Below are positions 10,137 to 57,063 of a stretch of DNA of 64,000 nt, in pieces. The translations under genes and the position numbers were made by a program. Every line of letters starts with the position of its first letter. Within the stretch, counting starts at the first letter, position 1. Source of the DNA: a virus; the IMG/VR virus record IMGVR_UViG_3300028829_006090, positions 62,001 through 126,000 of that record; one strand, 5' to 3'. A model generated the notes under the pieces. It was not told the origin of the DNA. It ran no database searches and worked only from the letters and a program-made list of their open reading frames with translations.

Positions 10137-10849
10137 GCCTTAACCTCCTCTAACTTCTGAACGATCTTAGATACCCGCTGACTGATAGCTGGCTGAGATA
10201 TGCCTAGCTTTGTAGCGATCTCCTTCTTACTTAGACGCGCTGCTCCGTTATATCCCGTAGTCCACTCGAAGATCTTCTTATCTTTCTCTCCGAGATCGAA
10301 ATACACGTAGTCGACCCATATATCTGAGGCGCTCTTCGACTTGCCAGCTAGATCACCTTTATCGGAGAGCGCTCGAGAGGTCGGAGCCTCCTTCAGTCTG
10401 GTTCTGTTTATCCGTTCCACAGATATGGACAATCCGTCCGCGATCGCTGTGTCGCTGGGTTCGCGTCCGTGAATGTCGGTATACTCTCGCGTGAACTCGT
10501 CCACTTGTCTGCGGTCGGTATGGGTCTGCTCTGGGAAGTGTAGGGCGTTCTGTCGCTTTGCCTTGATTCGGTTCAGGCGGCGTAGATGGTTGTAGACGTG
10601 CGTATTGAGAGCCGCGCCTCTGGTGGGATCGTAGCTCTTTATAGCATCTACAGCGAGGACACGCGCCTTTGTACGATACGCCTTATCTCCGCCTGCGTGC
10701 GCGGTAAGGCCGGACTTAACGGCGGGCTCTACCTCTTTTAGCACCGCATATAGATTATCGTCTGTAGGTGACTTCTTCCATTTCTCGAACGACTCCGGAC
10801 CTGTTAGCTCGGATGTCTTCCTAAATTGTCCTTTGAGGCCGGGATGCAT
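10133..10849 (-). CDS. Sigma-70-family-like transcription factor
   Basis: A 238-residue protein with sigma-like architecture. Residues 60-97 (VDAIKSYDPTRGAALNTHV) resemble region 2, whose usual phrase is FDPSRGV.FSTYA. Residues 100-150 (HFPEQ, then HGREPSDTAIADGLSISV) match region 3, usually GREPT.EEIA..LG.S. Residues 186-234 hold a region 4 helix-turn-helix (SKKEIATKLGISQPAISQ). Region 1.1/1.2 is missing and region 2.1 is short. It would confer promoter specificity on a polymerase. Unusually, it sits between the hub gene and wedge genes, overlapping the next gene by 4 bases. A partner in the same window is the phage RNA polymerase. It could instead redirect host core enzyme. Confidence 0.72.
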   Translation of the reverse strand: MHPGLKGQFRKTSELTGPESFEKWKKSPTDDNLYAVLKEVEPAVKSGLTAHAGGDKAYRTKARVLAVDAIKSYDPTRGAALNTHVYNHLRRLNRIKAKRQNALHFPEQTHTDRRQVDEFTREYTDIHGREPSDTAIADGLSISVERINRTRLKEAPTSRALSDKGDLAGKSKSASDIWVDYVYFDLGEKDKKIFEWTTGYNGAARLSKKEIATKLGISQPAISQRVSKIVQKLEEVKA

Positions 10850-29315: not shown

Positions 29316-30299
29316 TTACGCAGTAACGTCATTCCAACCGTTGGTGGTAGCCGTGATGAACTCGGCGCGACAGACCGCACCGCTGTTCTTGATGGTAGCT
29401 CCGACCATCTCGTAGCAGAACATCTCGAACAGGAAGTTCTCATGCTTGGTCGAGCAAGTAACGTCCTCGAACGTGTAGAAATCACCCAAGAACTTCGGCG
29501 CTGCGAAGTAGTAGATGACGTCGTTAGGAACGAGGTCGGTCTTGATCGTGATGATATGGGGAACGCCCATGATCTTACGCTCGGTGAAACCATTGCGAAA
29601 CATCTCTTCAGCAAGGTCGCCGCCGATCTCGGTACGGTCCAGGGCAACAATGTCATGGATAGTGACGTTGTTGACAAGGGCAGTAGCCGCGGTCAGGTGA
29701 CGGGTCGTGCTTGGGAGACCCTTCATGGCAAGAGCCAAAGAATCACGGGACATAGCGCCCACAGTGATGTTACCCATGGCACCGACTTCGGTGACGCGAG
29801 GACTGGCAGCTGCGCTCTGCTCGTCCAACGTACCGACTACAGTGTTTACTGCGGCCATGTACTTACGGTCTTCCTCTGCGAGGATGTCCTTAAGCATAAG
29901 GTCGTTAAACACCTGACGGATGTCGAGGTCATAGGTCATGAGGTTAGCCACATCGGCGATGAAGCGAGCCGACATGATGCGGTCAAACATCACACGGTAG
30001 CGCGGAGCATCGATGTAGTGGTTCATCGGGACGTTGCCAAACGGCACCGAAATGGCGGGAGGTGTGTCCGGCTCAGTATCCTTGACAATAACCGGCTTGA
30101 CGGTATCGACCTGACGGTCGAGATCGGCGGGGGTAACCGGGATTGGGGGCTGGATGCGTCGAGCAAAACCATCTTCGCGAGCTTTGAGGCGAAGGTAGTC
30201 GTCCACACCATTCTGAGCGGTCTTCTGCACGTAGGGATCCGAGGAACCCAGGGATTCGATGACCGTCTGATTACGGGTACTGGTCTCTGTATTCAACAT
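29316..30299 (-). CDS. Major capsid protein (HK97-fold)
   Basis: A 327-residue protein located after scaffold-like and decoration-like genes. It has a polar N-terminal segment (MLNTETSTRNQTVIESLG), a helical segment (LDIRQVFNDLMLKDILAE) and an alpha/beta domain ending in TKHENFLFEMFCYEMVGATI, a pattern common in capsid C-terminal domains of tailed phages. Its size, its position and the strong terminator after it support a highly expressed head shell subunit. Processing of the N-terminus by the maturation protease is plausible but not shown. Confidence 0.75.
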   Translation of the reverse strand: MLNTETSTRNQTVIESLGSSDPYVQKTAQNGVDDYLRLKAREDGFARRIQPPIPVTPADLDRQVDTVKPVIVKDTEPDTPPAISVPFGNVPMNHYIDAPRYRVMFDRIMSARFIADVANLMTYDLDIRQVFNDLMLKDILAEEDRKYMAAVNTVVGTLDEQSAAASPRVTEVGAMGNITVGAMSRDSLALAMKGLPSTTRHLTAATALVNNVTIHDIVALDRTEIGGDLAEEMFRNGFTERKIMGVPHIITIKTDLVPNDVIYYFAAPKFLGDFYTFEDVTCSTKHENFLFEMFCYEMVGATIKNSGAVCRAEFITATTNGWNDVTA

Positions 30300-39832: not shown

Positions 39833-42103
39833 TTACAACCTAACCGGGTCTAGCACTTTAGGAACATATGATGTGCCCTCGTGCTTGCTACTGGATCCTA
39901 ACTGGGCTGCCTCTAGGAATGACTTTTTAAGGCCAAACCCGGATAATCGTACTTTCCAGTCGGGATCGCTTCCGAGGACACCCATCGCTCTAACCACGTG
40001 CGGCTCGAATCCGGGCCCCTCTTTATGAGTAACAATAGTCTCTACCCCGTTATCTTCCAAATCTTTCGCAATCTTCGACGTTACTTTAGTACCTATAGAG
40101 TAATGCATGGTAGGCTTCTCCAGGTACGTACCTACCGCCCGCTTTGGGCGCAAAGGGTTAGAATCCTTACGTGGAATGTACTCACTAGCTAGCTGAGTAT
40201 ATGGAACAATGTCGGATATAGCATATCCCATAACGCCTTCCGGTCGTGTGATTTTAACTTTATCGAAGAATGCTCTGGACAATACCTCTACATTACGTCT
40301 ATGCGAGGATACTCCGTTTTTTGTAAGGATCTCGTAGAACTTGTCTTGGAAGTACCGGCGGCCTTCCCCTAGCCCTTTCGCCTGCGCGATCTCTGCAGGG
40401 TTAGGAGTGCCGTCTGTGAGCACATCTCCAGAAGTCACCTCATCTCCCACCTTTACGGTAATATTCCGTGTACCTGGAGAGTATTCTGGCTCTCCGTCTA
40501 TATACACGTACTTGCCTCCTTGAGGGGCGTCTACGATGCGTGTGACCTTGCCGTCTCGTTTAGACAGCACTGCGCCTCCCTTGAAAGTCTTAGGAACCTG
40601 GACGAATTGGTTTACCTCGTCGAACCCTGACACGTTGGACGTGTTCTCCCCTACCACTCCGCCTAAGTGCTTGGCGGATAGCGCGAGCTGCTGGGTCATT
40701 GGCTCTGATAATACTCGAGCAGACTCGATACCTATGTATGCTCCCATAGGCGGGAACTTATTCTGATCTCGTTTTCCGGAACACATCTGACATACGCCTT
40801 CCGGCATCTGGCAGGTTAGTAGTGACCGGATCATTACTCGCTTGCCTCTCAGGGTAGCGAGATCTTTACGGGATACGGCAGTATTTCTGGAGATGCCTTC
40901 AGTGTCCCGAGAGATGACTGATCCTAGTATCTCGGGGTCATCTCCATCTACCATAAGACCTACCCCATCTGCCCCGCAGTCCTTCCCGGTAACTCGAATG
41001 TGCTGCGACATAGCTGCGAGCTGTTTACCTAGAAATCCTGTCTTGGCCGTTGCGAACTGTACGTCTGAGTTGCTGACGATAAGGCCGTTCGCTAGTACGA
41101 ACATATGATCGGGGTGATCTACTTCCAGGTCGTACGTAGGAGTTAGACCGAGGGGCTCCGGATCACTCTGCTTCTTTAAGAATCCTGCTTTGGTCCACTC
41201 GTCCTTATCTAAGACAAGGGTCTTGTCGCTAACTCTACAGCGAGTCGCCTCTCCGATTGGATTCATATCTCCGCCTCGGGTCGCCAGTATCTTGTGATCC
41301 GGGGTAGCCTCTATGTATATGGAGGCTCCGCTACCGAAGTGGTATCTGTAGACGACTCTTACGCCGTTGTAGTGCCTGTCGATAACCTGTACTGGGAATG
41401 TATCTCCGGCAGGGCCGGATCCGAGCACCCATTCGCCGGGCCCTATGTCCTCTATACGCTTAACAGACGTGTCCGCCATCCGCACCAGAGTGTTGGGAGA
41501 CAAGCAGTATCCTTTTCGCGACGCGTACGACCCTGCCCAGAACTCCGGACCAGTCACTCCTTCTCCGTATCCGTGCATTCCAGGGATAGGTACAGGGCGA
41601 TCTCTGTGGTCTGCTACTAACATGTCGCCGAACAGGAGCTGCGTGAGCTGGGTCGGTGATCCGCGTAGTCCTTGCTTCACCATCTCCCCGTATGCGTTTG
41701 GACGAGTCTCCAGTTCGGCTAGTAGCGTCTTCTGGATAGTCGGCATAGCCTTCTGCATAGTCGACATGATCTGCTCGTCCTTCTGCGCTGAAGTCAAGGC
41801 GTTGCTCTGAGAGATGGCCCGTATCTTCTCTTGCAGCTGCTTACGATATGCCTTTGTCTTCGGTGGCAGCCTAAGGTCTGTAAGCCGCAACGAGGATGTT
41901 CCTCCGTACTCAGTCGCAACTACCCGGGAGATATCGGAGAGTCTTTTCAGCACCGTCACGTAATCGTCCGGGTGCTTCTCTGCTAACTCTTGGAAGAACG
42001 CCGACGAAGTCTTCTTGTTTAAGACTCGTCCGGGCTCTCGCATAGACTCGGGGATCGCCTGGTCTATGAGTATCCTCCCTAGCGTTGTACGGGCAGCGGG
42101 CAT
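39833..42103 (-). CDS. RNA polymerase beta-prime C-terminal subunit, interrupted by a mini-intein
   Basis: About 756 residues from ATG 42103 (MPAARTTLGRIL); the frame is open upstream to 42139. The start matches bacterial beta-prime at its TTVGR segment. Restored across the intein, SYASRKGY + SDVQFATAKTG aligns with the bridge helix (GARKGLADTALKTANSG in E. coli). Zinc site 2 is intact: C376, C431, C438 and C441 (KDCG, LLTC, GVCQMC). The trigger loop reads SEPMTQQLALSAKHLGG with H479 in the place of E. coli H936, while E. coli M932 and R933 become L and S. The long SI3 insertion is absent. Together with the gene at 45284-49732 it forms a two-gene multisubunit polymerase. Confidence 0.9.
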   Translation of the reverse strand: MPAARTTLGRILIDQAIPESMREPGRVLNKKTSSAFFQELAEKHPDDYVTVLKRLSDISRVVATEYGGTSSLRLTDLRLPPKTKAYRKQLQEKIRAISQSNALTSAQKDEQIMSTMQKAMPTIQKTLLAELETRPNAYGEMVKQGLRGSPTQLTQLLFGDMLVADHRDRPVPIPGMHGYGEGVTGPEFWAGSYASRKGYCLSPNTLVRMADTSVKRIEDIGPGEWVLGSGPAGDTFPVQVIDRHYNGVRVVYRYHFGSGASIYIEATPDHKILATRGGDMNPIGEATRCRVSDKTLVLDKDEWTKAGFLKKQSDPEPLGLTPTYDLEVDHPDHMFVLANGLIVSNSDVQFATAKTGFLGKQLAAMSQHIRVTGKDCGADGVGLMVDGDDPEILGSVISRDTEGISRNTAVSRKDLATLRGKRVMIRSLLTCQMPEGVCQMCSGKRDQNKFPPMGAYIGIESARVLSEPMTQQLALSAKHLGGVVGENTSNVSGFDEVNQFVQVPKTFKGGAVLSKRDGKVTRIVDAPQGGKYVYIDGEPEYSPGTRNITVKVGDEVTSGDVLTDGTPNPAEIAQAKGLGEGRRYFQDKFYEILTKNGVSSHRRNVEVLSRAFFDKVKITRPEGVMGYAISDIVPYTQLASEYIPRKDSNPLRPKRAVGTYLEKPTMHYSIGTKVTSKIAKDLEDNGVETIVTHKEGPGFEPHVVRAMGVLGSDPDWKVRLSGFGLKKSFLEAAQLGSSSKHEGTSYVPKVLDPVRL
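41069..41506 (-). mobile_element. Mini-intein (146 residues) inserted in the bridge helix of beta-prime
   Basis: Counted from ATG 42103, the intein spans C200 to N345, with block A CLSPNTLVRM, block B ATPDHKIL (T267, H270) and ending NGLIVSN before extein serine 346. No LAGLIDADG or other endonuclease domain fits in 146 residues, so it is a minimal Hint-type intein. The penultimate residue is serine instead of the usual histidine, which may slow asparagine cyclisation. The site is between the equivalents of E. coli L783 and A784. Confidence 0.88.
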
Positions 42104-42107
42104 AGAG

Positions 42108-42665
42108 TTATCTAAACTTATTATCGATGATGTTACCAAACACGGTGCCGAGGAACGGCACTGCCTGCCCTACCTCTATCCCCCTATCCTTCCAAGTCCT
42201 ACCGTCTATCTTACCTGTAAGATGTTTTGCTATAGACATGAGCTTGGCCTTTCTAGTAGGGTCCTTTTCAGACGTGGCGGCTTCGGTAAGCACTTGGCGG
42301 CGAGCGATCAGCGCATTTCGGTGCTTTAGATTAGGTGCCCGAGTCCTTGCTTTTTTAGCATTGCCCTCGATATCTCCCTGTAGGATTCCTCTCTGGGAGT
42401 TGATAAAATCTATCTCTTCCTTAGAGATATCTGACGTGGGGTTGCCTAGAACGTAGTCTTTATATTGACCTAAGCTGGATATACCCTTCCGTCTTCCCTG
42501 CATGAGCTCCCCTGCTGCAAGACCAACGCCTGCTCCGACGCCACCTCCAATCAGATACTTGTTGAAGGTCCTATCGGACTCGGGCACGAGCTTGCGGGTT
42601 AGCGCGACTCCGATGACAGCGCCGAGCGGGGTCGTAACTAGTGATGGGTTGATTGGATCCTTCAT
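42108..42665 (-). CDS. Small virion-region protein with Gly-rich membrane segments
   Basis: A 185-residue protein with GGAG before the ATG. It begins with a hydrophobic stretch (TTPLGAVIGVALTRKL), and a second Gly-rich segment (YLIGGGVGAGVGLAAGEL) is followed by a basic, helical C-terminus. It lies between the repeat-rich gene and the polymerase C-terminal gene. One or two membrane-inserting hairpins are plausible. Similar compositions occur in several neighbours, suggesting a group of virion or ejection proteins. Function unknown. Confidence 0.55.
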   Translation of the reverse strand: MKDPINPSLVTTPLGAVIGVALTRKLVPESDRTFNKYLIGGGVGAGVGLAAGELMQGRRKGISSLGQYKDYVLGNPTSDISKEEIDFINSQRGILQGDIEGNAKKARTRAPNLKHRNALIARRQVLTEAATSEKDPTRKAKLMSIAKHLTGKIDGRTWKDRGIEVGQAVPFLGTVFGNIIDNKFR

Positions 42666-42670
42666 CTGGA

Positions 42671-43471
42671 CTACTCCGCGTACTGGCCGAGGGCCCGCAG
42701 TACTTGAATAAGGGCGTTATCTTGGTCGGCGGCCTCTAGCTGCTGCGGCATCTCCGTGGGGACCGGCATGGGCGGCAGTTCTGCCATAGGGGGAAGGGCC
42801 TCTGGCATGGGCATCTCGCCTGCGGGCGGAAGTGCGCTTAGGGAGTCCGGTGTCAGATTAGCGACGCTTGGAGGGAGCGCAGCCTCCCCTCCCTCTGGAA
42901 CTGTCTCCGGAACAGAGACGCCCATGGTATTAGCCATCTGGACAAGCAGAGACTCTAGCTCATCGATGCGGGACTCCAGCTCCTTATTGGTGACTCTGGA
43001 AGATTCCTCCTCCTTTGCAGGGGGCTGGGAGGCAGCGGCGGCCTCGATCAGCATCTGCAGATCCTGTGCCGACAGGGTAACAGGCTGTGCTTCCATGCCT
43101 GCCATCCCGGGATCTCCTGGACCGGCAGCTGGCATACCCATCATACTAGGGTCCATCGGAGGCATCGGCGGTGCGCCGCCCATCATACTAGGATCCATCA
43201 TGCTAGGGTCCATCGGAGGCATCGGCGGTGCGCCGCCCATCATGCTAGGGTCCATCGGAGGCATCGGCGGTGCGCCGCCCATCATACTAGGATCCATCAT
43301 GCTAGGATCCATCGGAGGCATCGGCGGTGCGCCGCCAGCTAGTGCGGGATCCTCTGCAGGTGGCAGGGCACCCATCTGTCCCGGTACTGCTGCTGCTGGC
43401 GCGGGAGCTGGGGGGGCGTATGCCTCCTTGGTTAGGTGCATTACTTTATTTAGTAGGTCTTTATTCAACAT
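42671..43471 (-). CDS. Pro/Met-rich repetitive virion protein
   Basis: A 266-residue protein with a low-complexity middle made of near-identical units built from MGGAPPMPPMDPSMM, coded by tandem DNA repeats at about 43140-43335. Flanks include an N-terminal helix (MLNKDLLNKVMHLTKEA) and a helical C-terminal region (ELESRIDELESLLVQMA). Such Met/Pro-rich spacers are disordered and may be a flexible internal-virion linker. The repeats would allow length variation. No enzyme motif. Confidence 0.55.
   Translation of the reverse strand: MLNKDLLNKVMHLTKEAYAPPAPAPAAAVPGQMGALPPAEDPALAGGAPPMPPMDPSMMDPSMMGGAPPMPPMDPSMMGGAPPMPPMDPSMMDPSMMGGAPPMPPMDPSMMGMPAAGPGDPGMAGMEAQPVTLSAQDLQMLIEAAAASQPPAKEEESSRVTNKELESRIDELESLLVQMANTMGVSVPETVPEGGEAALPPSVANLTPDSLSALPPAGEMPMPEALPPMAELPPMPVPTEMPQQLEAADQDNALIQVLRALGQYAE
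43140..43335 (-). repeat. In-frame tandem repeat coding Met/Pro-rich units
   Basis: Several near-identical units share the + strand core CGGAGGCATCGGCGGTGCG and include variants with or without a second Met-Met-Asp segment. The units are 33 to 48 bases and always multiples of three. Unit count differences would change the protein length without shifting frame. Confidence 0.7.
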
Positions 43472-43511
43472 CGGGATATCTTATGCCTCTTAGGTGATTC
43501 GGATATTGCTA

Positions 43512-44042
43512 TTAATTTGAAGTGTACCCCGATATAAATGCGGAAACATTTATTGTCGGCATTTGAGAAGCGCACTTCCATTTTCTGCGTGCCTTACATA
43601 TTCTCTTATCAGGAGTCTTTGAGCAATCTATATTATGCATCTTGCGCTGTCCATCGGATCTAGCGCAGAAGCTCTTTCTTCTCTTAGACGCCGCGCCCCC
43701 CTTTTTAACTTTACCTGTGACAGGCGCTTTTAAGTTACTGCCTGGGTTTTCTCTCTCGTAAGACTTACGGCCAGCTTCGTTTAGGCCGCCTTCTCTATTC
43801 TGTCCCTTCTTACGAGTCCATGCAGGGCTCTTCTTTTTCTTATCCTTAGCCTCTTTGAATGCTGTCACGAACCTTACAAATTCGTTATCGCTTGAGGCTT
43901 TCTTCGCAAACTCCTCCAACTTATCTTCGGACATGCTGTTGGCGATCTCTTTTACCTTATCTGAAGCGTCCGGGCTCTCTCCTCGCTTATATGCTAGAGC
44001 CGCTCCAAAAAGTTTACGCTGATTTTCAGATTTAGCAGGCAT
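43512..44042 (-). CDS. Small basic virion-associated protein with phage-common repeat motif
   Basis: About 176 residues from ATG 44042 (MPAKSENQRKLFGAAL), which follows GGAGGAGAG. The N-terminal pattern, KSENQRKLFGAALAYKRGE, is common in small phage proteins. The middle reads SPAWTRKKGQNREGGLNEAG and KSYERENPGSNLKAPVTGK, then RRKSFCARSDGQRK and CSKTPDKRICKARRKWKC, typical of a widespread domain with four cysteines and basic residues that could bind DNA or zinc (I recall a DUF6321-like entry, not checked). It ends AFISGYTSN. Confidence 0.55.
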   Translation of the reverse strand: MPAKSENQRKLFGAALAYKRGESPDASDKVKEIANSMSEDKLEEFAKKASSDNEFVRFVTAFKEAKDKKKKSPAWTRKKGQNREGGLNEAGRKSYERENPGSNLKAPVTGKVKKGGAASKRRKSFCARSDGQRKMHNIDCSKTPDKRICKARRKWKCASQMPTINVSAFISGYTSN

Positions 44043-44043
44043 C

Positions 44044-45276
44044 TTACTTCTCTCCTCCATTGAACATATCTCTTGATATCCTTAGCTTAGATCCTGGGTC
44101 GTATCCGGGAAAATCTTCTCTCCGGCTGTTTATACCCACTGCATCTGCCAAGGACTGTACGAATGTGTTGGAGTTTACTCCTCGGCCTAGAATGTTCTTC
44201 CATATGGGTGGGTACATGTAGGGATTCTCCCTTTCGTTATATCTGTAGGCTTCCCCAGCCTTTAGTACTTTACTTATGATGTCGTCGGTGCTCTTCCCTT
44301 GGTTGACAGATCTGCTGATGTGCGTCTCCCAGAACTTAGGTAACTTGGGATTCTCCTGTGTTGAGAAGTACTCTCGAAAAGCCTTTACATCGTTTCCGTA
44401 GTTCCTATGGTACCGGAGCCTGCGTCTGCTGAAGAAACTAGGTTTAACATTGTATGCTCCTACTATGATGGCAGGAGTGTCTCCGTACTTATCTACCGCA
44501 TTGCCGAATCTATTGGGATCTTGTGGAACCAATATGAAGAACTGGTGTCTGCCTATAGGGGCCTTGCCGACGCCTGTGTCCATAGCGACTCTTCTCGATC
44601 CTATGTATATGCCGGGATTAAGGTTCTTGCTGTGTACTAGTTCCTTGCCTTTCTTCTTCGCCGCAGACTTGAATAGCTTCGTAGGCAGGCGGATGTCGTT
44701 CCCTATATCGCCCTTGGGGAAATCCTGCCTGCGCTTATCTATGCCTGCCACGTCGGCTAAGGTCTGTGCGAAGGTGTTAGAGTTAGGCCGCATTCCGAGG
44801 AGATTGGGAGCGAGGGCCGGGTAATACACTGGGCGCTTCGCTGTAGATTTCTCGTACGCCTTGCCTGCAGTCAGCATCCTACGGATAGTGTCGTCAATAT
44901 CTTTCTTTGGGATAATGGGCCGGCTCAGTACGGGCTTCCAAAAGGCCTTAGACTTGGGGCTGCCTGAGTGTGTGTCTGTGTACTCTCGGATGGCTGCTAG
45001 ATCGTCTGGCTCGTTCTGTCGGTACTTGAGACGGGGCCTGGATAGGACCCTTTCCCCCGGGACCCGGTATCCTCCGACCAATATTCCGCGATTGCCGTTG
45101 CCTAGATCGACGTCCAGTCCTTTGAACTTCTCGGGCTTATTAGGCACCATCACGAAGAATTGGTGGCGGAAGTAGGAGGGGTTCGCCGGGCTGTTCGCAT
45201 TGGCTACTCGGCGCGTGCCTAGGTATATGCCTGGAGCAAGCGTTCCGGTTTCTATGAGTTTATCTTGCTGCTTCAT
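44044..45276 (-). CDS. Tandem-duplicated protein, possible papain/NlpC-like fold
   Basis: A 410-residue protein made of two homologous halves of about 190 residues. Both halves contain GIYLGTRRVA-type starts, a RHQFFVMVP or RHQFFILVP strand, a segment around LSRPRLKYRQ or FSRRRLRYHR, and a closing NSNTFAQTLADVAGI or NSNTFVQSLADAVGI followed by DFP. The NSN-T-F pattern resembles the helix that carries the catalytic residue in some papain/NlpC-like domains, but with serine where a cysteine would be expected. Catalytic activity is therefore doubtful. It is next to the polymerase gene in the virion block. Confidence 0.55.
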   Translation of the reverse strand: MKQQDKLIETGTLAPGIYLGTRRVANANSPANPSYFRHQFFVMVPNKPEKFKGLDVDLGNGNRGILVGGYRVPGERVLSRPRLKYRQNEPDDLAAIREYTDTHSGSPKSKAFWKPVLSRPIIPKKDIDDTIRRMLTAGKAYEKSTAKRPVYYPALAPNLLGMRPNSNTFAQTLADVAGIDKRRQDFPKGDIGNDIRLPTKLFKSAAKKKGKELVHSKNLNPGIYIGSRRVAMDTGVGKAPIGRHQFFILVPQDPNRFGNAVDKYGDTPAIIVGAYNVKPSFFSRRRLRYHRNYGNDVKAFREYFSTQENPKLPKFWETHISRSVNQGKSTDDIISKVLKAGEAYRYNERENPYMYPPIWKNILGRGVNSNTFVQSLADAVGINSRREDFPGYDPGSKLRISRDMFNGGEK

Positions 45277-45283
45277 ATGTCTA

Positions 45284-48200
45284 CTATTCCAGTATGGTGA
45301 TGGGGTCGTCTATTGCTATCTTACCTGACCTATACGCCTTTCTTGCATCGGCCACGGTATTGAATACAGCGGCTGTCTTATCTGCAGGAGCCTTGGTAGC
45401 TAGATATAGCCCCTGCAGATATTCATTGGAAAGCTTATACGATGCCTGTCCTGATCGGGCGGAGATTAGATTGCGGTCCGGCATCATGCGGTCGACCACT
45501 TGGGATACCGCCTCGTCCGAGACAGGAACGGTGAATGACGCTGTGTCTCCGTCATAGTCCATGGCGAATGGCCCTACAATGGCCGGAGGCACTTGGACGG
45601 TAGATCCTTTTACGAGTACCGGCCAGAATCCCATGACACTGTACTTGTGTAAGGTAGGCGCCCGATTTAAGATGACAGGGCGCTTGGTGATAACAGACTG
45701 CAACGACTTGTACGCTAGGGGTGAGTGATCTTTGACCGCTGTTGCAGCCTCTGTGGCAGGGACGCCCTGTCGCACAAGGTCTCGGATAACAAACGGCTCG
45801 TATAGATTCCAAGCAAGCTTCTCTGGGATGCCCGCTTGGTTGAGTAGAAGGGACGGATTAGGTGCGACTACGCCTAGTCCCGACATATCGATATTAGTCC
45901 CTAGAACTCGGCGCTGAATGAAGCCTGTCTTCGGACTTCCTTTTCCGAATATGTGCGAAAGGATGCCCTTTACGTTCTTCTGTACGAGCTGATCCTTCTT
46001 CGGATCGGATACACCGATGAGAGCCTTGTAGCTATCCCATAGATCTCTTCGAGCATCGTTACGCATATCTGCCGGTAGTCCCTCTGTCTCGTTATAGTCG
46101 GAGATAGACTCCACTAGAGACTTATACAGGTAGTTCGGGTCGGCCACCATCGTCATCCCTCCCTGTGCTGATATAGGACGGAACCGAGGCGGAAGTACCG
46201 GAACTCGGGTCATCATGAAGTCCGATGGCTTCACCTTGTTAGTTTCGAAAGCATGTAGGAATCGGAACTTTTTTACAGCATCGTCGCGCTTAGATCTGAT
46301 GCCGTGCTTTATCTCGTGCAGCGCCTTGGCCTTTTCTGCCTTGACGTCGATTCTACCTAGCTTGTCGGCTAGAGCGTCCTCTCCGGAGGCCACTAAATCC
46401 TCCATCTCGGTTCTTTTTAGGCCCAATATACGCCGTATAGGGTCTACCATGATAGGGTTAGGCATGGCCGTAGGGAGGTCAATGTATGCCCATCTGTCGC
46501 CGTTAGCCGAGCTTCCGGTAGCGTCGGGGTCAAATAGGCCTCCTGGGATGGGCTTAAGACCTTTTGCTGTATATGTATCACCGGTAGAGATCTTTCTATT
46601 TCCGGTAAGGTCTTTTGCCTGTTGGTTGGTCATAGAGAATATGTCGTCGGAGAACGCGCCTTCCGACAGATGTACTCCGCCTGCTCTGAGGAGGTCCTTA
46701 AACTTCTCGTAGACTAGCGGAGTCTTCGGCATGGTAGGGGTCTGTCCCAGCTTCAGCTGACGCCAGAACATATCGTTCTTCTGCCCCTTGATGAGCTTCA
46801 TGTCCTTGAGGACCTCTGTCGCCCCGTGTGCTAAAAGAGCCTCTTGGTACATCTTGCCTAGGTGTTTAGCGCCTGTCTTGCCTCCCTTGGCCGGCTGGTC
46901 CTCTGCTGTGTACTTAGCCTGTGATCTGGACTTGCCTTTACCTTCGGACGTATGCTGCATCTTGTAGAAGTACGTCACTCCGGTAAATATCTGGGGGATC
47001 TTCTTCCCGGTTCTCGGATCTACTAGGTCCTCTCTATCGGATAGTCTATTCTTCTGGAGCTCGCTATGGGTGAACTCTATCATGTCTTCGTCTGAGAATC
47101 CCGGTAAGACGTAGGGCTTGCCTGTCTTCTCTGCGATCTTGCCTAGCTGGGCCTCTAGCTTCTGTGCCGGGTTAGTTCTGCTGACTACTCCCAGGGGAGA
47201 CAGTATGACGTCCATCTTTCTGCCCTTAGGGTCCGTCGGCATCTCAGAGTCCTTGATCACCTTAGAGATTACGCCCTTGCCGCCGTGCCGCATGGCCAGT
47301 TTATCTCCTACGCCCATGGGTATGTTCGTACGGACATTGATGTAGTACTGCTCTTTGCCTTCGGTCGCGTCTGTGACTACTCCGGGGTGTCTCTTCTCCC
47401 ACAGCACTGCCTTGTTGGAGCGCATGCGGCGGCCAAGGGATCCACCGGCATGCGGATCCTGCTCGGACATCGCCAGAGCAAGCGGATCTCCATATCGTAC
47501 GACCGATCCGGGCTTTATCATCCCCGTCGTTTCGTCGATCTTAGCGAGCTGCTCTTTATTGAAGGCGGCGGGGAAATTAGCTCTGAACTTATCCTTAGAG
47601 ACAGACAGGTCCTTTTCCTTCTTGAACTTAGCATGATACATATGCTCTGACGTGAGCTTCTTAGCTGCCGTCTCGGATATAACAATGGCATCCTCGAACA
47701 CCAGTCCGTCATAGTTCCAGTACGCTACGCGGAGATTAGTCCCGAGGGCCGCTACTCCCTTATCGCTGGTGAAGTTACTGGCTGCGAGCATGTCGCCCTT
47801 CTTCACCTTGTCTCCGGCCTTTACTAGGGCCTTGTTGCGGATGTACGTGGATCGGGCATACGGAAAGTTCTCGTACAGATCCACGGATCCCTCGGATCCG
47901 TCCGCATAGGTTAGGTCTACTCTATTCTTGCGGACGGCCTTAACTGTGGCGTCCCTAGAGGCGCGCACTGCTCCGAGATGGCCGCCTATGCGTCTCTCCA
48001 TGCTGGTGCCGCTTCCGGGATCGGTAGTTCTTACTAGCGGAGCCTCTCTGCTCACCAGAGGAAGTGCCTGGGGCCCAAATTTCGAGCCCATTAATAAACG
48101 CATTCCCTTATCTCCGGATTTCAGAGGAACCAGGTTAGCCCCATCGCTAAACATATCATCGTTGTTCGGTACGACGTAATCGATGTCTTCACGCTTTACC

Positions 48201-49732
48201 CATGCCATGCCCTTATTAGGCACCATCGCAATTACGTAGGGGTCTGTGTTCTTCTGGAATCCCGGCCATGTCAGGTTCTTTCTAGCGGCCTCTCGGATCC
48301 CTACCCACTTCTCCTTACCTGTACGGGCATCTATGAATTTAGAGTACAGCTGACGGTCGGGGCCTCTACGTACGTTGCGCGACATCTTCATATCTACGCC
48401 GATCTTTAAGCTTTCCGGAGCACGAACTGGATCAATGTAATTCAGGTACGTGGGCTGTACGCCTCGGGCCTCTTTAGGGACAACATCTACGCTAGTCATC
48501 GCGCCCTCGCCTAGGCGTAAGATCCGCTGGTTCTGGTCGTACATGTCTAGCGGATTGATCTCTTCGATGGGCTGAGCCATCCCTGAGCTGACAAACAGAT
48601 GCTGTACGTGTTTATCGAGAGGGGCGGTAGGTACTGCAGATATGTCTCCGTTCTTCTTTGAGACTTTCCATAGGATCTGTCGCAGCACTCCGTTCTGGTC
48701 GTTGGCTACCTTGTCACTAAGGAAGTCCGATATATCCCAGACGTCCTGGAACTCTAACGAATCCCTACTGTCGGAGTCTTCGTCTCCTTTGGCAACCCGC
48801 AGGATCTTCCCGGTAGCCGACATAATAGCCTCTGGAGAAGCGTTGGTGTGATCCTCTCCGAGAGTAACCCTAGTGACCCGGGGGTTGAGTCCGATTTTAC
48901 CGAACTCTTCAGTAAGTCCTTCCCGGACCGTGTCGTTGTATAGGGAGGACACTGTCGACCCTGTCTTCTGCTGTAAGAGCTGTGCAACTACAGGCCCTGC
49001 CTTGGCGTCCAGTGCTATGGGCGCTGCCGGTGCATCTGGCTCTGGGGCAACTGCGAATCCTTTTAGGAAGTTGACTGCGTAGGGAGACTTCTCTAAGGTC
49101 CTGTTCTTCTCCGCGATGTCTTTTCCCCACTGCGCCTCGATATCTTCGTGCTGCTTACCCATGGCCCGGAGGATAGGATATAGCGGAAGCTTACGGTTCT
49201 TATACTTCATGTAGAAGAAAGACGTCGACGGCTCCATGTATATACGGAAAGAGGGCCCGGACCGTGGAATAGCGTTGAACTGGGCCTCTATGTTCGAGTC
49301 ATCCGTTACGCGCGTGTATATTCCTGAGTTGAGACGAAGCTGCTTCGCTACAGTGTATTCCGTGCCGTTACGTACGTACGTGCCTCTGTCTGTAAGGTAC
49401 GGCACGTTTATGATAGTCTTCCGGCCAGTTCTGCCTAGCGACTTGCCTGTCTCCTTATCGATAACCTCCCACCGACCTGTCACCTTATCGCTAAGTGTCC
49501 GGCCCTCTAGGATCGCGTCCTTCTGCTGGGACAGCGAGTATCTACCTTTAGGCTTAGCGTACGCGACGTCTGTGGCCTTTAGCATGTATCTGTCGTTTTC
49601 GGAAAACGCTGATTGCTCTACTGAAGACAGGACCTTCTTTCGAAGATCGGTTCGTACTGAATCGTAGTCCGTATAATTTAGGAGACCGGTACCATCTGAG
49701 AAGTCCGGAGCAGGAGAAGGCATCTCAGGCAT
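45284..49732 (-). CDS. RNA polymerase beta/beta-prime N-terminal fusion subunit
   Basis: A 1482-residue protein. The beta part has VPYLTDRGTYVRNGTEYTV near residue 95, a Rif-region-like stretch INPLDMYDQNQRILRLGEG near residue 390 and the catalytic block DKLAMRHGGKGVISK near residue 805, with PLGVVSRTNPAQKLEAQLG after it. A junction near residue 1110 leads directly to the beta-prime start PIPGGLFDPDATG, without the usual gene break, and the zinc cysteines of beta-prime site 1 are absent. The catalytic loop is FAMDYDGDTASF (bacterial NADFDGD), and RAPTLH is kept. It ends at AYRSGKIAIDDPI, where the second gene takes over. No alpha or omega gene is visible here. Confidence 0.93.
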   Translation of the reverse strand: MPEMPSPAPDFSDGTGLLNYTDYDSVRTDLRKKVLSSVEQSAFSENDRYMLKATDVAYAKPKGRYSLSQQKDAILEGRTLSDKVTGRWEVIDKETGKSLGRTGRKTIINVPYLTDRGTYVRNGTEYTVAKQLRLNSGIYTRVTDDSNIEAQFNAIPRSGPSFRIYMEPSTSFFYMKYKNRKLPLYPILRAMGKQHEDIEAQWGKDIAEKNRTLEKSPYAVNFLKGFAVAPEPDAPAAPIALDAKAGPVVAQLLQQKTGSTVSSLYNDTVREGLTEEFGKIGLNPRVTRVTLGEDHTNASPEAIMSATGKILRVAKGDEDSDSRDSLEFQDVWDISDFLSDKVANDQNGVLRQILWKVSKKNGDISAVPTAPLDKHVQHLFVSSGMAQPIEEINPLDMYDQNQRILRLGEGAMTSVDVVPKEARGVQPTYLNYIDPVRAPESLKIGVDMKMSRNVRRGPDRQLYSKFIDARTGKEKWVGIREAARKNLTWPGFQKNTDPYVIAMVPNKGMAWVKREDIDYVVPNNDDMFSDGANLVPLKSGDKGMRLLMGSKFGPQALPLVSREAPLVRTTDPGSGTSMERRIGGHLGAVRASRDATVKAVRKNRVDLTYADGSEGSVDLYENFPYARSTYIRNKALVKAGDKVKKGDMLAASNFTSDKGVAALGTNLRVAYWNYDGLVFEDAIVISETAAKKLTSEHMYHAKFKKEKDLSVSKDKFRANFPAAFNKEQLAKIDETTGMIKPGSVVRYGDPLALAMSEQDPHAGGSLGRRMRSNKAVLWEKRHPGVVTDATEGKEQYYINVRTNIPMGVGDKLAMRHGGKGVISKVIKDSEMPTDPKGRKMDVILSPLGVVSRTNPAQKLEAQLGKIAEKTGKPYVLPGFSDEDMIEFTHSELQKNRLSDREDLVDPRTGKKIPQIFTGVTYFYKMQHTSEGKGKSRSQAKYTAEDQPAKGGKTGAKHLGKMYQEALLAHGATEVLKDMKLIKGQKNDMFWRQLKLGQTPTMPKTPLVYEKFKDLLRAGGVHLSEGAFSDDIFSMTNQQAKDLTGNRKISTGDTYTAKGLKPIPGGLFDPDATGSSANGDRWAYIDLPTAMPNPIMVDPIRRILGLKRTEMEDLVASGEDALADKLGRIDVKAEKAKALHEIKHGIRSKRDDAVKKFRFLHAFETNKVKPSDFMMTRVPVLPPRFRPISAQGGMTMVADPNYLYKSLVESISDYNETEGLPADMRNDARRDLWDSYKALIGVSDPKKDQLVQKNVKGILSHIFGKGSPKTGFIQRRVLGTNIDMSGLGVVAPNPSLLLNQAGIPEKLAWNLYEPFVIRDLVRQGVPATEAATAVKDHSPLAYKSLQSVITKRPVILNRAPTLHKYSVMGFWPVLVKGSTVQVPPAIVGPFAMDYDGDTASFTVPVSDEAVSQVVDRMMPDRNLISARSGQASYKLSNEYLQGLYLATKAPADKTAAVFNTVADARKAYRSGKIAIDDPITILE

Positions 49733-49739
49733 GAGTTAT

Positions 49740-50825
49740 CTACGCTCCCATTAACTCTGAGTACAAATCCTGCGATGCGGTGTCGCCTAGTTCGGAGGGA
49801 ATTAGAGACTGTCCTTTATCCGCGGCCGCGATGGCGGCCCGTCCTGTCGGTATTGCCGTATGTATGCTCTCCTTCTTTACTGCTCCTGCCTCGGATGAGG
49901 AGGGGACCTCGGGAAGATCTGACGCGTCCAGGATGACGGGAGCGCCTGTCTGCTTCTGCCGAGAGCTCATGAGCTTTTTCAGATCCTTCATACGTCCTCG
50001 AGCGGGATCTTGCTTGTCGGAGTAGGTCTTCATAGCCTTATAAGAGAACGCAAATGCGAACGTAGCCCACAGCCACCAGAAATTAGCTACCGCTTGTGGG
50101 TACCGGGTCGGGGATGTTAGTGTATCGCCTATAGACGGGTTCTGTTTTTCTATATCCGCTGCGTGGATAGTGTCTGCTGCCTTCTTCTGGCTGCCCATTC
50201 CCTTTACGCGCTCGTACTCTTCGTGGATCATCTTATCGACTTTGTTTTTAGTACTGGCGATGCTTGTGTCTAGCTGCTCTCGACGCTGGGCGTCCTCAGC
50301 ATAGTCCGCAAGGCGCCATCCGCCCGCAGTCGCTGCAAATACGGCAGCCGTGGCTAGGGCCAGATGAGCCGGATCGTGCTTACCGGAGGATATGTCGTCC
50401 AGGAATCGGCCTGTTGTACCTGCTACGCCTTGTAAGAGTCCACTAGCCTCCTTCTGCCCTTCGCCTAAGAGGCGGTCCTCTAAGGCCTCCTCCTCTTCCA
50501 GATCAGCAGCGTCGGGGTCGATAGTAAATGTTGGATACTTGCCTGAAGAGTAGGCCTTAGCGTCTGCTCTCCTTCTCTGCAGCTCCTGGTTGATTCCGAG
50601 CTCTTCAGCCTCTTTTAGCTTGTGTAGCTTGCGAAGTACGAACGCGAGTCCGCCGTAGCCTATGCCTAGGCCTCCTGCATGCAGGAGGGCCTTCTTTGTC
50701 GGACTCGCGTCCGGGGAGACTATAGTCCGATCGAAGGCGACGGGATTGAAAAAAGTATTGAGGACGCGGGCCATGTCGTCCTTGGCCGCCTTCTTTTGCG
50801 TATCGGTATTAGAGTCTGTAGGCAT
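49740..50825 (-). CDS. Membrane-segment-containing virion-region protein
   Basis: A 361-residue protein with several hydrophobic stretches (LGIGYGGLAFVLRKL, LALATAAVFAATAGGW, FWWLWATFAFAFSYKAM) separated by charged linkers. K-x-A-(S/A) contexts (GQKEASGLLQG, SQKKAADTIHA) are present. Its position between the polymerase fusion gene and the small Gly/Ala proteins suggests a membrane-active ejection protein, although no family is recognised. The long intergenic gap before it (50826-50929) contains the palindrome. Confidence 0.55.
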   Translation of the reverse strand: MPTDSNTDTQKKAAKDDMARVLNTFFNPVAFDRTIVSPDASPTKKALLHAGGLGIGYGGLAFVLRKLHKLKEAEELGINQELQRRRADAKAYSSGKYPTFTIDPDAADLEEEEALEDRLLGEGQKEASGLLQGVAGTTGRFLDDISSGKHDPAHLALATAAVFAATAGGWRLADYAEDAQRREQLDTSIASTKNKVDKMIHEEYERVKGMGSQKKAADTIHAADIEKQNPSIGDTLTSPTRYPQAVANFWWLWATFAFAFSYKAMKTYSDKQDPARGRMKDLKKLMSSRQKQTGAPVILDASDLPEVPSSSEAGAVKKESIHTAIPTGRAAIAAADKGQSLIPSELGDTASQDLYSELMGA

Positions 50826-53697: not shown

Positions 53698-53725
53698 GGG
53701 GAGAGTAATTTTTTTTTTACTCCCC
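53698..53725 (-). other. Inverted repeat with an A10 tract (minus strand) across a stop codon
   Basis: GGGGAGTAA and its near-complement TTACTCTCCCC flank a run of ten A residues on the minus strand, immediately at and after the stop codon of the 53717-55198 gene. On the plus strand the loop is T10. The T run is inside the loop and not downstream, so this is not a standard minus-strand terminator. Confidence 0.4.
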
Positions 53726-55198
53726 TACAATGCTTGAGAGGAAGCCCTTGGCCATGTTACTGAGTTGTCTAGATTTGCTGTCTTGCTGTTTCTGTATCTC
53801 TTCCATTTTTTTGCGGCGGGCGGTGTTTAGCTCGTTTTTTGGCGCGTTCGCGTTGTACTCCTCTTTATCCTTAGCTGTAGGAGTTGGGTGCATTACTTTA
53901 GGCGAGGGAGGGGCGTTATACTCCTGTTTGGCCTGACTGACCATAGCTCTGGCCGCCGCGACTGGGTTGTAACTACTGGCGTTGTACCCGGCGTCTAGTA
54001 TCCTGTATAGTGCGGAGGACTGGTTAGGAGCCGGAGTAGGAGCCGGAGTAGTAGCGGGAGGCGCTGCCGGATGCGGCGGTGCTGGAGCCGGAGGGGCTGG
54101 CGCGGGAGTGGTAGCTGGAGGGGCTGGAGCCGGAGGGGCTGGCGCGGGAGTGGTAGCTGGAGGGGCTGGTGCAGGAGCTGGCTCTGGTGCGGGGGGAGGC
54201 GTTGGAGCCGGGGGCTCTGGTGCAGGAGGAGCAGCGGGAGCAGCAGCAGCGGGAGCAGCAGCAGGAGTATGAACAGGGACCATGTTTTTGTACCTGTTCT
54301 CTAAGTCCGTTAGCCTATCCTGGGCTTTAGCAATCTGCGCACCGTAGTCCGTGCCGGATGATTCGAGCAGTCCGGCGGGCAGGGCTGTTCCGGCTTCTCT
54401 GAGACTATCTAGTGATTTTAGGTGACCGATATTCGCCTGTTCTTTTGCTACAGCTGCACGGTTACGGGCGATATTATCTACATTCGCGGTGCTTAGCCCG
54501 GGGGCAGTTATATTGAGGAGTTCTTTCTGCTCCGCCAAGGTTCTTTTGAATACATCCTTAGTGTAGGCGGTATGCGCAGCCGGTAACTGATTCTTCATAA
54601 GATCAGTCTTCTGCTCACTGGACAAGGCGGATTGATTATTAGCTAGCTCTAGGGCTGTACTGTACACGGCGGCCGGGGCTGTACTGATTGCCGCTATAGC
54701 CTCCGCATTCTTGTCCGGATCCTTCGCGAGAGCTTCTCGTACCTTGTCTAGATTGCGAGTAGCGATCGAGTCCTGTACGAACTTAACAGCTTCCGTTTTA
54801 CCTACGCCGAAGAAGTCCATAACCGCGAAGGCAAGTGTACCGATAAGTGTGCCGGCCAGTGCGCCTTTACCGCCTCCTAAGAGACCTCCGATGACTCCTC
54901 CGACGCCGGCTCCGCCCAGGGCCCATCCTATCTTCTGCGCAGTCTTATCTGACGATACCTGATACATGGTGTCGGACATGATAAGCGAGCTCGCCCATTG
55001 CCGAATCTGAGACAGCTTTTCCGGAGTATTATAGCCTGCTTTGTATGCCGCTCGGGTGAATTCGTCTCCCTCGACTTGAGGCACCATGTCTGCAGGTACC
55101 GGTGCTGGAGGCGGCGGGACCGCCCCTGTATTTGCCCATTTCTGGAAGAATTCCTCGGCCTCCTCGGCCGATAGTCTAGTATGAGGTAATTTGATCAT
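53717..55198 (-). CDS. Proline/alanine-rich virion protein with membrane segment
   Basis: A 493-residue protein with an N-terminal Gly/Ala hydrophobic region (IGWALGGAGVGGVIGGLLGG, TLIGTLAFAVMDFFG). A helical middle follows, then a long low-complexity part with repeated PAPAPPATTPAPAPP units coded by tandem DNA repeats at about 54030-54255. Such spacers are disordered and may act as flexible stalks. It overlaps the portal gene by 4 bases. I infer an internal or ejected protein near the portal; no known family is recognised. Confidence 0.55.
   Translation of the reverse strand: MIKLPHTRLSAEEAEEFFQKWANTGAVPPPPAPVPADMVPQVEGDEFTRAAYKAGYNTPEKLSQIRQWASSLIMSDTMYQVSSDKTAQKIGWALGGAGVGGVIGGLLGGGKGALAGTLIGTLAFAVMDFFGVGKTEAVKFVQDSIATRNLDKVREALAKDPDKNAEAIAAISTAPAAVYSTALELANNQSALSSEQKTDLMKNQLPAAHTAYTKDVFKRTLAEQKELLNITAPGLSTANVDNIARNRAAVAKEQANIGHLKSLDSLREAGTALPAGLLESSGTDYGAQIAKAQDRLTDLENRYKNMVPVHTPAAAPAAAAPAAPPAPEPPAPTPPPAPEPAPAPAPPATTPAPAPPAPAPPATTPAPAPPAPAPPHPAAPPATTPAPTPAPNQSSALYRILDAGYNASSYNPVAAARAMVSQAKQEYNAPPSPKVMHPTPTAKDKEEYNANAPKNELNTARRKKMEEIQKQQDSKSRQLSNMAKGFLSSIVGE
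54030..54255 (-). repeat. In-frame Pro/Ala-coding tandem repeat
   Basis: Near-identical units built on the + strand core GGAGGGGCTGGCGCGGGAG and shorter GCAGCGGGAGCAG repeats. They encode Pro/Ala/Thr-rich units within the 53717-55198 product. Length variation is likely here. Confidence 0.65.
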
Positions 55199-57063
55199 TG
55201 TACAGGTACCTGTCCTTGTCGCGCGAGCTGCACACCTTGTGTAGCCGCTTGGTTTTCGAGTTCGCTGAGTCTAGCTTTGACTTGGGCATACAGTGCCTCG
55301 TCCTGGTGCTTAAGGTCGGATAGCGTCCTACGTCGTGTAAGCGGGTCCGCTACGATAAGCTCTTGGGCGATCTGGTCTGCGTTGGTCAATAGGTCGTCGA
55401 TGGTTGCTCCAACCCCTGTAGCCCCTCCCGTTCCTGCGGAGGGAGGCATAGCGGCAGGAGGAGCTGCTGCTCCTGCGGGAGCACCGGCCTGCTGCTCTTG
55501 GGCAGCCATAGCGGCCTGCTCTTCCTGCATAAGGACCTGCTGTCCTGGGCCGGGCACGGTGACTGCTTGTACATTGGCCATCTGGTTGTCCATCTGGCGC
55601 TGGCGCTCTTCCATCTCTTCGGCAGCCGCTTCTTCCTGATCGAGCAGCTTCTTACGCTCTTGGTCGTAGTCTATGCCGATTGTCTGTAGAGCGGTGTCTT
55701 CAGATATCTTACCCGCGGCGGCGAGCTGCATCTTGAGACTGCGGATCTCCGGATCCTCGTATAGGGATACTGGTTTGACGAATGCGCGGACAGTTTCCCA
55801 GCTTAGTAGATCGCCCTGCTTATTCACTACCCACGTTGCCCACTTGTTGAGCTGGTTAGCGAAATGCTGCCACGTCCGTTCGAACATCTTAAAGCCGATA
55901 AGAGGTCCTGCAGCTGCTTGGAATCCTGTAATGGATGACTTGTAGAACTCAGGAGGAATACCCATAGAGTGTAGGAGCCGCATCTCGAAGTGCTCCATGA
56001 TGTCTACAGGTATAAGGCTCTTTGCCTCGCCTCCCAGTGTCTGGTACTCCAAAGGATAGGGGAGGAAGTTCCAGTCCGTAGGATTTCTACGGTGGCGCTG
56101 GATCATACCCATTACAGATCCGACAAAGTCCTTCATATTCATGTTGAGCATAGGATCCTTAGATCCGCCTGCGCTCGGAGGAGAGAACACGCGAAACGGC
56201 ATAAGGTACTCTACCAGGATAGTCTCCACGTACTTATCCAACATCGTCACTAAGACGGCCGTTTCAAAGTCCGCCATGAATGGGGGAAGTCCCCATCCCT
56301 TAAGATTAGGGATAGAGCAGGCAGCTACTGGGAAGGACATGTGATATAGCTCGTCGTTCGCAAACTCGAACTCGCTTCCTTTACAGATAGCCTCTACGAC
56401 CTCCCAAGGAGTGTCTTCAAGAAAGATGAGGTCTCCTCTAAGAACAGGGGCGGACAAAGAATCGTACTGTTTTAGGTCTATGCTGTACTTGGTGCGGCCT
56501 GACATCGGATGCTGATGGATGCGCATAAACTGCGGCGGCCAGCGGGTGATGACAGGCTTAGACTTCTCTTTAGGAAGCAGTGTATCTTCGTGCGGTAGCT
56601 GGCCCTTATAGGAGCAGGATGCGCACTCTCCGATGAAGCGGCAGTTCTCGAACTTAATCTTGTTTTTGAAATGCTTTAGAGGCGCACGCAGGCTACATCG
56701 GGGGCAGATAAGCTGGCGAAGGAACGGGCGGTGGATCGACGTGAATGAGTTCCCGAATGCCATGAAGTCGTCGCCTATTACAGCCAGCTCTTCGATCATG
56801 TCGAAGTTTTCGGCAATCGCATCGAGGTAGACCTTACGGCTACGGAAGTCCAGATCGTCTCCCTCTACATCCAGCTCGGTCATAAAATACCGAACAGCCG
56901 AGGAGATAGACTGGGAGTACATGCCGTGATGCATCCACAGTTCCTCTGCCCATGCAAAGGTCTCTCGGATAGTCTTAGGATAGACTCGCCGGGTCAGCTT
57001 ATTAAAGGGGGACGTTACATCCTTGTCCCATCGAAGGCCGGCGTCTTGTATACCTGAAGACAT
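55195..57063 (-). CDS. Portal protein
   Basis: A 622-residue protein. Portal-like features are the helical stretch GIPPEFYKSSITGFQAAAG, the wing/crown pattern FKMFERTWQHFANQLNKWA, and the central domain with VEAICKGSEFEFANDELYH and NPTDWNFLPYPLEYQTLGG. An unusual zinc-ribbon-like insertion is seen at C120-C123 (CPRC) and C147-C150 (CASC). The C-terminus is Gln/Ala/Gly-rich. As the dodecameric ring, it would serve DNA packaging and tail attachment. It overlaps both neighbours slightly. Confidence 0.85.
   Translation of the reverse strand: MSSGIQDAGLRWDKDVTSPFNKLTRRVYPKTIRETFAWAEELWMHHGMYSQSISSAVRYFMTELDVEGDDLDFRSRKVYLDAIAENFDMIEELAVIGDDFMAFGNSFTSIHRPFLRQLICPRCSLRAPLKHFKNKIKFENCRFIGECASCSYKGQLPHEDTLLPKEKSKPVITRWPPQFMRIHQHPMSGRTKYSIDLKQYDSLSAPVLRGDLIFLEDTPWEVVEAICKGSEFEFANDELYHMSFPVAACSIPNLKGWGLPPFMADFETAVLVTMLDKYVETILVEYLMPFRVFSPPSAGGSKDPMLNMNMKDFVGSVMGMIQRHRRNPTDWNFLPYPLEYQTLGGEAKSLIPVDIMEHFEMRLLHSMGIPPEFYKSSITGFQAAAGPLIGFKMFERTWQHFANQLNKWATWVVNKQGDLLSWETVRAFVKPVSLYEDPEIRSLKMQLAAAGKISEDTALQTIGIDYDQERKKLLDQEEAAAEEMEERQRQMDNQMANVQAVTVPGPGQQVLMQEEQAAMAAQEQQAGAPAGAAAPPAAMPPSAGTGGATGVGATIDDLLTNADQIAQELIVADPLTRRRTLSDLKHQDEALYAQVKARLSELENQAATQGVQLARQGQVPVQ

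Follow-up and report, generated by a model that had tools for sequence, protein, structure and literature searches.

A survey of IMG/VR described the multisubunit-RNAP-encoding Caudovirales (mReC), uncultivated tailed phages that carry a bacterial-like but separate RNA polymerase (RNAP), with its genes placed among structural genes (Weinheimer & Aylward 2020, PMC7481178). Inclusion in that group required an NADxDGD motif; the main text mentions neither an intein nor a split, and it uses "fused" or "fusion" for crAssphage only (PMC7481178). The vRNAP and nvRNAP of phiKZ and AR9 have no alpha subunit and a beta-prime that is split after the DPBB/Asp loop, but beta itself is also split in these enzymes and is not fused to beta-prime, for a total of four to five chains (PMC7598289). 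The conserved genes of crAss-like phages are rich in introns and inteins, and the RNAP genes of their Zeta group are disrupted, which was described in terms of stop codons and frameshifts and not of mapped inteins (Yutin 2021, PMC7886860). The crAss-like RNAP is a very divergent virion enzyme of the single-chain type (PMC7886860), unlike the two-chain enzyme described here. In archaea, eukaryotes, chloroplasts and NCLDV, inteins have been described in the large subunits of RNAP, where they occupy strongly conserved positions of the active centre (Goodwin 2006, PMC1635734; PMC5784728). As for cellular genes, cyanobacteria and plastids split beta-prime after the Asp loop (rpoC1-rpoC2), while in Helicobacter and Wolbachia beta is joined to a beta-prime that is kept whole (rpoBC). 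We know of no organism that has both a split of the rpoC1-rpoC2 type and a fusion of the rpoBC type.

The DNA analyzed here, referred to as the window, is a stretch of 64,000 nucleotides corresponding to positions 62001-126000 of the 164,893-base IMG/VR virus record IMGVR_UViG_3300028829_006090. Its RNAP is encoded by two genes, A and C (Table 1). The first ~1000 residues of gene A were homologous to bacterial beta, with T. thermophilus beta as the top PDB sequence (E=7e-60). In the same frame, residues 1094-1480 could be aligned with positions 435-829 of T. thermophilus beta-prime (E about 1e-47). Both parts were also recognized by Pfam (Rpb2_6, 8e-46; Rpb1_2, 8e-18). The beta catalytic core (GDK..RHG.KG, EDA) was present, and PIPGGLFDP was found at residues 1061-1069. 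An earlier note on this DNA, made from the letters alone, had read gene A as beta motifs running in frame into beta-prime through PIPGGLFDP and DYDGD, and this reading was confirmed by the match of one ORF to both subunits. Alignment to E. coli RpoC showed that gene A lacks the N-terminal zinc ribbon of beta-prime and that the gene extends 86 residues beyond DYDGD, ending at about position 552 of E. coli beta-prime. The cyanobacterial gamma model runs about 70 positions past this end (its match ends at 550 of 619). In contrast to the phiKZ and AR9 enzymes, beta is whole and only two chains are present, and the window RNAP is far closer to bacterial sequence than theirs.

Gene C matched beta-prime from TTLGR onward (best E=7e-31), this motif being aligned with TTVGR at position 572 of E. 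coli. The break thus lies after DYDGD and before TTLGR, where the note had placed it. Only a loop of ~20 residues, from about 552 to 572 in E. coli numbering, is thus missing between the two genes, which together cover the RNAP core minus the beta-prime zinc ribbon and this short break loop. The bridge helix, zinc site 2 and trigger loop ascribed to gene C by the note were all present; however, an intein inside the bridge helix had been missed, and the start of the gene had to be moved. Most likely, translation starts from the ATG at 42103; with the TTG at 42139, the gene would overlap the ORF upstream of it. All four cysteines of zinc site 2 are retained in the window, in a lineage where this site was mostly lost (the motif C.{6}C..C was found in 13 of 80 gene C ORFs and is missing, for instance, from locus L005). 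The 10-mer TAGATAACTC occurs just twice in the window (42105-42114 and 49733-49742), each time just before a start codon, that of gene C or gene A. We considered this leader as a family trait and rejected it, since the pairing is not shared by relatives.

Table 1. Features of the RNAP locus and its surroundings (window coordinates)
Feature	Position	Strand	Basis
Gene A: fused RNAP beta + N-terminal part of beta-prime, 1482 aa	45284..49732	-	single open frame; homology
Beta motif GDKLAMRHGGKG, residues 809-820, E. coli K1065/K1073 region	47273..47308	-	alignment to T. thermophilus beta; E. coli mapping
Beta-prime N part of gene A, ~residue 1053 to end	45287..46576	-	alignment to E. coli RpoC
GGLFDP motif opening the beta-prime part, residues 1064-1069	46526..46543	-	sequence, alignment
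Catalytic Mg loop DYDGD, residues 1392-1396, equivalent to E. coli D460/D462/D464	45545..45559	-	sequence, alignment
Gene C: beta-prime C-terminal part, 756-aa precursor including intein, about 610 aa spliced	39833..42103	-	homology
N-extein of gene C, residues 1-199, TTLGR to first bridge-helix half (...ASRKGY)	41507..42103	-	sequence, extein alignment
Mini-intein, 146 aa, C200...N345, +1 Ser, without homing endonuclease	41069..41506	-	Hint, intein_Cterm, extein alignment
C-extein of gene C, residues 346-756: second bridge-helix half, zinc site 2, trigger loop, C-terminus	39836..41068	-	sequence, alignment
Zinc site 2 cysteines C376, C431, C438, C441	40781..40978	-	alignment to bacterial beta-prime
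Trigger-loop N-terminal part QLALSAKHLGG; H479 equivalent to E. coli H936	40658..40690	-	alignment
Four ORFs separating the RNAP genes: 410, 182, 266, 185 aa	42108..45276	-	two scanned, no family found
Portal protein homologue, upstream of RNAP genes	55195..57063	-	phmmer, Arash portal, E=9.4e-54
Major capsid protein homologue, downstream of RNAP genes	29316..30299	-	phmmer, Arash capsid, E=2.1e-25; phrog_2522, 1e-6

Structure prediction with AF2, which had been proposed as a check, agreed with these assignments in part. Residues 283-1482 of gene A (pLDDT 70.4) matched bacterial beta (4g7h_C, 1.3e-37), and the gene C precursor (mean pLDDT 67.8, poor over the intein) matched T. thermophilus beta-prime (8w8o_D, 7.6e-22). 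Thus, A and C modelled singly resemble the expected subunits, but the confidence was moderate and the global TM-scores of the models were low. In the gene C model, two helices, residues 185-200 and 346-366, represent the halves of the bridge helix and flank the insert.

This insert interrupts the bridge helix immediately past the position that corresponds to E. coli 783, and it matched Hint (Pfam, E=4e-5) and intein_Cterm (NCBIfam, E=2e-5). It begins with CLSPNTLV, contains TPDHKI and ends with YDLEVDHPDHMFVLANGLIVSN, followed by Ser, so that its blocks can be written as C1, TPDH (block B), YDLEV..HMF (block F) and a VSN^S end. It displays the characters of a class 1 mini-intein, namely, Cys1, the TxxH block B, a C-terminal Asn, a +1 Ser and a place in the Hint fold family. 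The common penultimate His is replaced by Ser, which counts against the splicing model, but the DnaE inteins, which are the nearest PDB sequences, likewise end in SN. When the spliced form of gene C was aligned with its intein-free counterpart in L005, no gap was seen across the site (YASRKGY/SDVQFATAKTGFLGKQL versus YGARRGV/ISTKLATADSGFLGKQL). Another relative, L157, carries an allelic intein of 386 residues at the identical position (SRKGY^C...VSN^SDVQFATA), with 43% identity to the window intein in the N-terminal splicing block and 67% in the C-terminal one. The ~240 extra residues of the L157 intein sit where other inteins of the set carry homing endonucleases, and for this reason the window intein is best read as the endonuclease-less remnant of a homing intein.

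We estimate at about 85% the probability that genes A and C encode one working phage multisubunit RNAP, of which the C part is spliced before docking. Gene A would produce a single chain made of the beta core and the part of beta-prime with the catalytic Asp loop. Gene C would produce a precursor of the remaining beta-prime, from which the mini-intein would be removed by protein splicing, joining GY to SDVQ and restoring the bridge helix. Mature C would then dock on A, bringing the bridge helix, the trigger loop and the DYDGD loop into one active site, in an enzyme that would have neither an alpha subunit nor a bacterial-type zinc ribbon and that would transcribe phage genes. The intein would represent a homing-deficient remnant of selfish elements that repeatedly invaded this polymerase lineage. 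From the sequences, the window RNAP is real and probably active: the ORFs, their homology and motifs, the conserved layout and the anatomy of the intein and its allele were observed directly, and splicing, assembly and activity of A and C are inferred.

Relatives of this locus were searched by tblastn against phage records and then by profile-guided scans of IMG/VR. Pattern scans using single window proteins retrieved no relatives, alignments being required, and a scan of genome contigs found none. After removal of duplicates, IMG/VR yielded 76 different fused A proteins, corresponding to 65 clusters at 95% identity. Together with the E-values reported above, these homologous fused ORFs exclude a chance match to RNAP. 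Beta-prime C was located downstream on the same strand in 66 of the 67 loci with sufficient DNA, and in none of the fused-gene loci were the two halves of beta-prime united in one ORF. By tblastn, the same continuous fusion with a separate downstream beta-prime C was detected in the cultured Salmonella phage Arash (OQ632216) and in Vibrio phage D69 (OZ195729), and the layout is shared by Vibrio phages D181 (OZ196140) and D148 (OZ196545). These RNAPs are about 30% identical to that of the window and have no intein; in the deposited records, the genes are called "RNAP subunit beta" or "hypothetical protein", without mention of the fusion. The claim that the arrangement is unlike that of bacterial genes was right as regards the fusion and the split, but the layout does not belong to this phage alone, since it recurs in at least 65 clusters, cultured phages included.

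The nearest relatives of the window are only about 40% identical to it. In a tree of the beta-prime N part, they formed one branch with the window (15 rows, 100/98), while the Arash-like phages formed another (20 rows, 97/99). Both branches were apart from bacteria (100/99) and from a phiKZ-type enzyme, in a tree with few references and long branches whose deeper order is unsure. Several matches labelled as Staphylococcus, Listeria or Enterococcus phages were rejected as relatives: they were unannotated fragments resembling bacterial rpoBC, and the one included in the tree grouped with E. coli. The branch leading to the window is itself long (1.09 changes per column) and, with the substitutions of trigger-loop residues, would be compatible with decay, i.e., a Hint insert that no longer splices or truncated pseudogenes in place of A and C. 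The replacement in gene C of the residue equivalent to E. coli R933 indeed counts against our preferred reading. However, both frames are open, and the Asp triad, the beta lysines, the zinc-site cysteines, the trigger-loop His and the splice residues are all kept. As the same two-gene layout is also found in many other phages, decay appears barely credible, and the view that A and C are not pseudogenes was upheld.

Further rearrangements were seen in single members of the family. Some Arash-like phages (L012-L014, L018, L019 and L026) show a further break within beta-prime. Group I introns (Rfam RF00028) interrupt the fused gene in Vibrio phage D181 and in L020. The introns were mapped to L004 6425-6705, L004 2628-2835 and L020 11476-11757; two of them lie in the fused gene at PFFNS^NHPGRL, and the third is close to the gene in the portal position of Vibrio phage D181. 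A homing endonuclease ORF is annotated inside the intron of the D181 fused gene. At L039 9908-14098 and L051 8231-13708, the beta-prime C frame is prolonged by long additional C-terminal regions, which are perhaps fusions to virion proteins; one has a P-loop-like motif and the other is proline rich. A frameshift breaks the fused gene just past its GDK-site intein at L040 5455-6500 and may be a sequencing error, a real frameshift or a split.

Whereas the RNAP inteins described previously come from archaea, eukaryotes, chloroplasts and NCLDV, the window's branch of bacteriophages carries about 40 distinct inteins in its RNAP genes, at about 16 sites over both subunits and up to six per enzyme. 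Named by the E. coli residue preceding the insertion, the sites are 513, 538, 546, 565, 762, 1066, 1106 and 1266 in beta and about 82 (clamp region, approximate), 336, 464, 783, 788, 796, 923 and 932 in beta-prime, 783 being the site occupied in the window and in L157. Nearly all of them fall in catalytic motifs: the bridge helix contains three, one (464) directly follows DFDGD and another two lie around the trigger loop. The ends at the beta 762 site (L136) are approximate, a further site near the Asp loop of L076 is possible, and an L130 insert near hmm 259-269 was left out because it has no intein ends. When insert segments of relatives were scanned, 9 of 10 showed LAGLIDADG or Hint/intein families, and the tenth, a 147-aa insert of L050, has clear splice ends and resembles the allelic intein of L041. 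This L050 locus (IMGVR_UViG_3300048837_000984) has six inteins in one enzyme. Two of these, mini-inteins of 141 and 143 aa (9557-10432), share one bridge helix and are separated by an extein of 8 residues, STQDAGFF; the alternative of a single 292-aa intein with loss of 8 bridge-helix residues was rejected in favor of this pair. At L050 6011-7582, an intein located directly after the catalytic DFDGD apparently begins with Gln and has an N-terminal extension of ~70 residues, and the L157 fused gene also carries an intein directly after DFDGD. A second homology match in the L005 fused gene, examined as a domain duplication, proved to be a LAGLIDADG intein. In the open-access literature searched, we found no report of bridge-helix inteins, of such an intein load or of an RNAP in which beta is fused to beta-prime N while beta-prime C is encoded apart.

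The position of these inteins raises the question of whether splicing acts as a switch, in which conditional splicing (by redox, temperature or a host factor) would determine when the polymerase becomes active. As the helix that spans the active cleft is the one interrupted by the insert, a C precursor that is not spliced should lack activity, and inteins of relatives are found at several active-site positions. However, the insertions affect a minority of RNAP loci, and none were seen in the RNAP genes of the Arash-like phages. The enzyme thus does not need an intein, and the absence of one from most relatives makes a selfish element the simplest view; the scattered distribution and the LAGLIDADG domains fit selfish homing. 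We regard a switch as very unlikely. It also seems unlikely, as a broader proposal, that the active centre of this phage RNAP lineage is a standing intein target and that splicing became a timing step in some members, holding the enzyme inactive until packaging or injection.

Few genes of the window received a name from PHROGs or Pfam, and the portal and capsid genes were identified by comparison with Arash. Homology to these two Arash proteins places the RNAP genes between portal and capsid, as the earlier note had proposed. The portal gene is upstream of the RNAP genes in Arash as well, where the fused gene follows just downstream of it. Neither the record that contains the window nor any of 20 relatives (21 genomes in total) yielded an alpha subunit (PF01193), in searches whose controls were positive. 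Proteins rich in proline with short repeats (PPMPPMDPSMMGGA; PAPAPPAT) are encoded in the structural region of the window (42671-43471 and 53717-55198).

Packaging of the enzyme in the virion, as suggested in the note, is plausible, judging by the position of its genes in the structural operon. It would then be injected with the DNA and transcribe early genes, as in N4, phiKZ or crAss-like phages. The location between portal and capsid homologues in both the window and Arash fits this model, as does the report that mReC RNAP genes typically lie amid hallmark proteins (PMC7481178); in contrast, Rhizobium phage RHph_Y65 and Cobetia phage Carin-5 carry theirs among replication genes. Gene position is no proof, however, as operons are shared with late genes, and the sigma-70-like proteins of Arash (gp196) and D69 fit an enzyme that acts with sigma during infection. 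Alternatively, the RNAP might be made during infection to transcribe middle or late genes, perhaps together with a sigma factor of the phage. Consistent with this, 7 of 21 related genomes, Arash and D69 among them, had a Sigma-70 region 2 match that exceeded the Pfam cut-off. In the window's record, on the other hand, the signal was weak and below cut-off (E=0.001; G000:C1:159993-160103, minus strand, in a 179-aa frame that is possibly a diverged phage sigma factor), and most genomes of its branch had none. Phage-specific intergenic palindromes are candidate promoters or operators and would also suit an enzyme made during infection. Each of the two models seems to us a real contender, with a chance slightly below even.

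The palindrome TAGCATACGTATGCTA has six near-matches in the window (at 3868, 13204, 23742, 31526, 50895 and 59782) versus 0.22 expected. It is nearly absent from relatives, although further copies were found in L031-L036, one L031 copy being a perfect hairpin with an 18-bp stem. This element is possibly a phage-specific promoter, operator or terminator.

We also compared the lineage with the mReC by marker. The NADxDGD motif was present in 17 of the 76 fused proteins and was missing from the other 59 and from the window, which has AMDYDGD. Terminase family PF03237 was found in 5 of 21 genomes but not in the window, the terminase of which matches PF05876. The mReC capsid family PF07068 had no match in the 21 genomes, in a search in which no positive control matched either. 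The window lineage and the mReC contigs probably overlap.

A simple, alpha-free RNAP of the bacterial type, made of two chains and with near-bacterial catalytic motifs, is thus present in at least 65 phage clusters. Since the layout occurs in cultured phages, its assembly, its promoters and its role in the virion are directly testable. Automatic annotation will misread these RNAP genes, and motif-filtered surveys may overlook many of them. The intein load constitutes a natural insertion series in the bridge helix, the trigger loop and the Asp loop, useful for asking why inteins pick active sites, how several splicings are tolerated in one enzyme and how short the extein between two inteins can be. 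With beta joined to beta-prime and beta-prime cut after the Asp loop, these phages indicate that evolution can freely re-divide RNAP.
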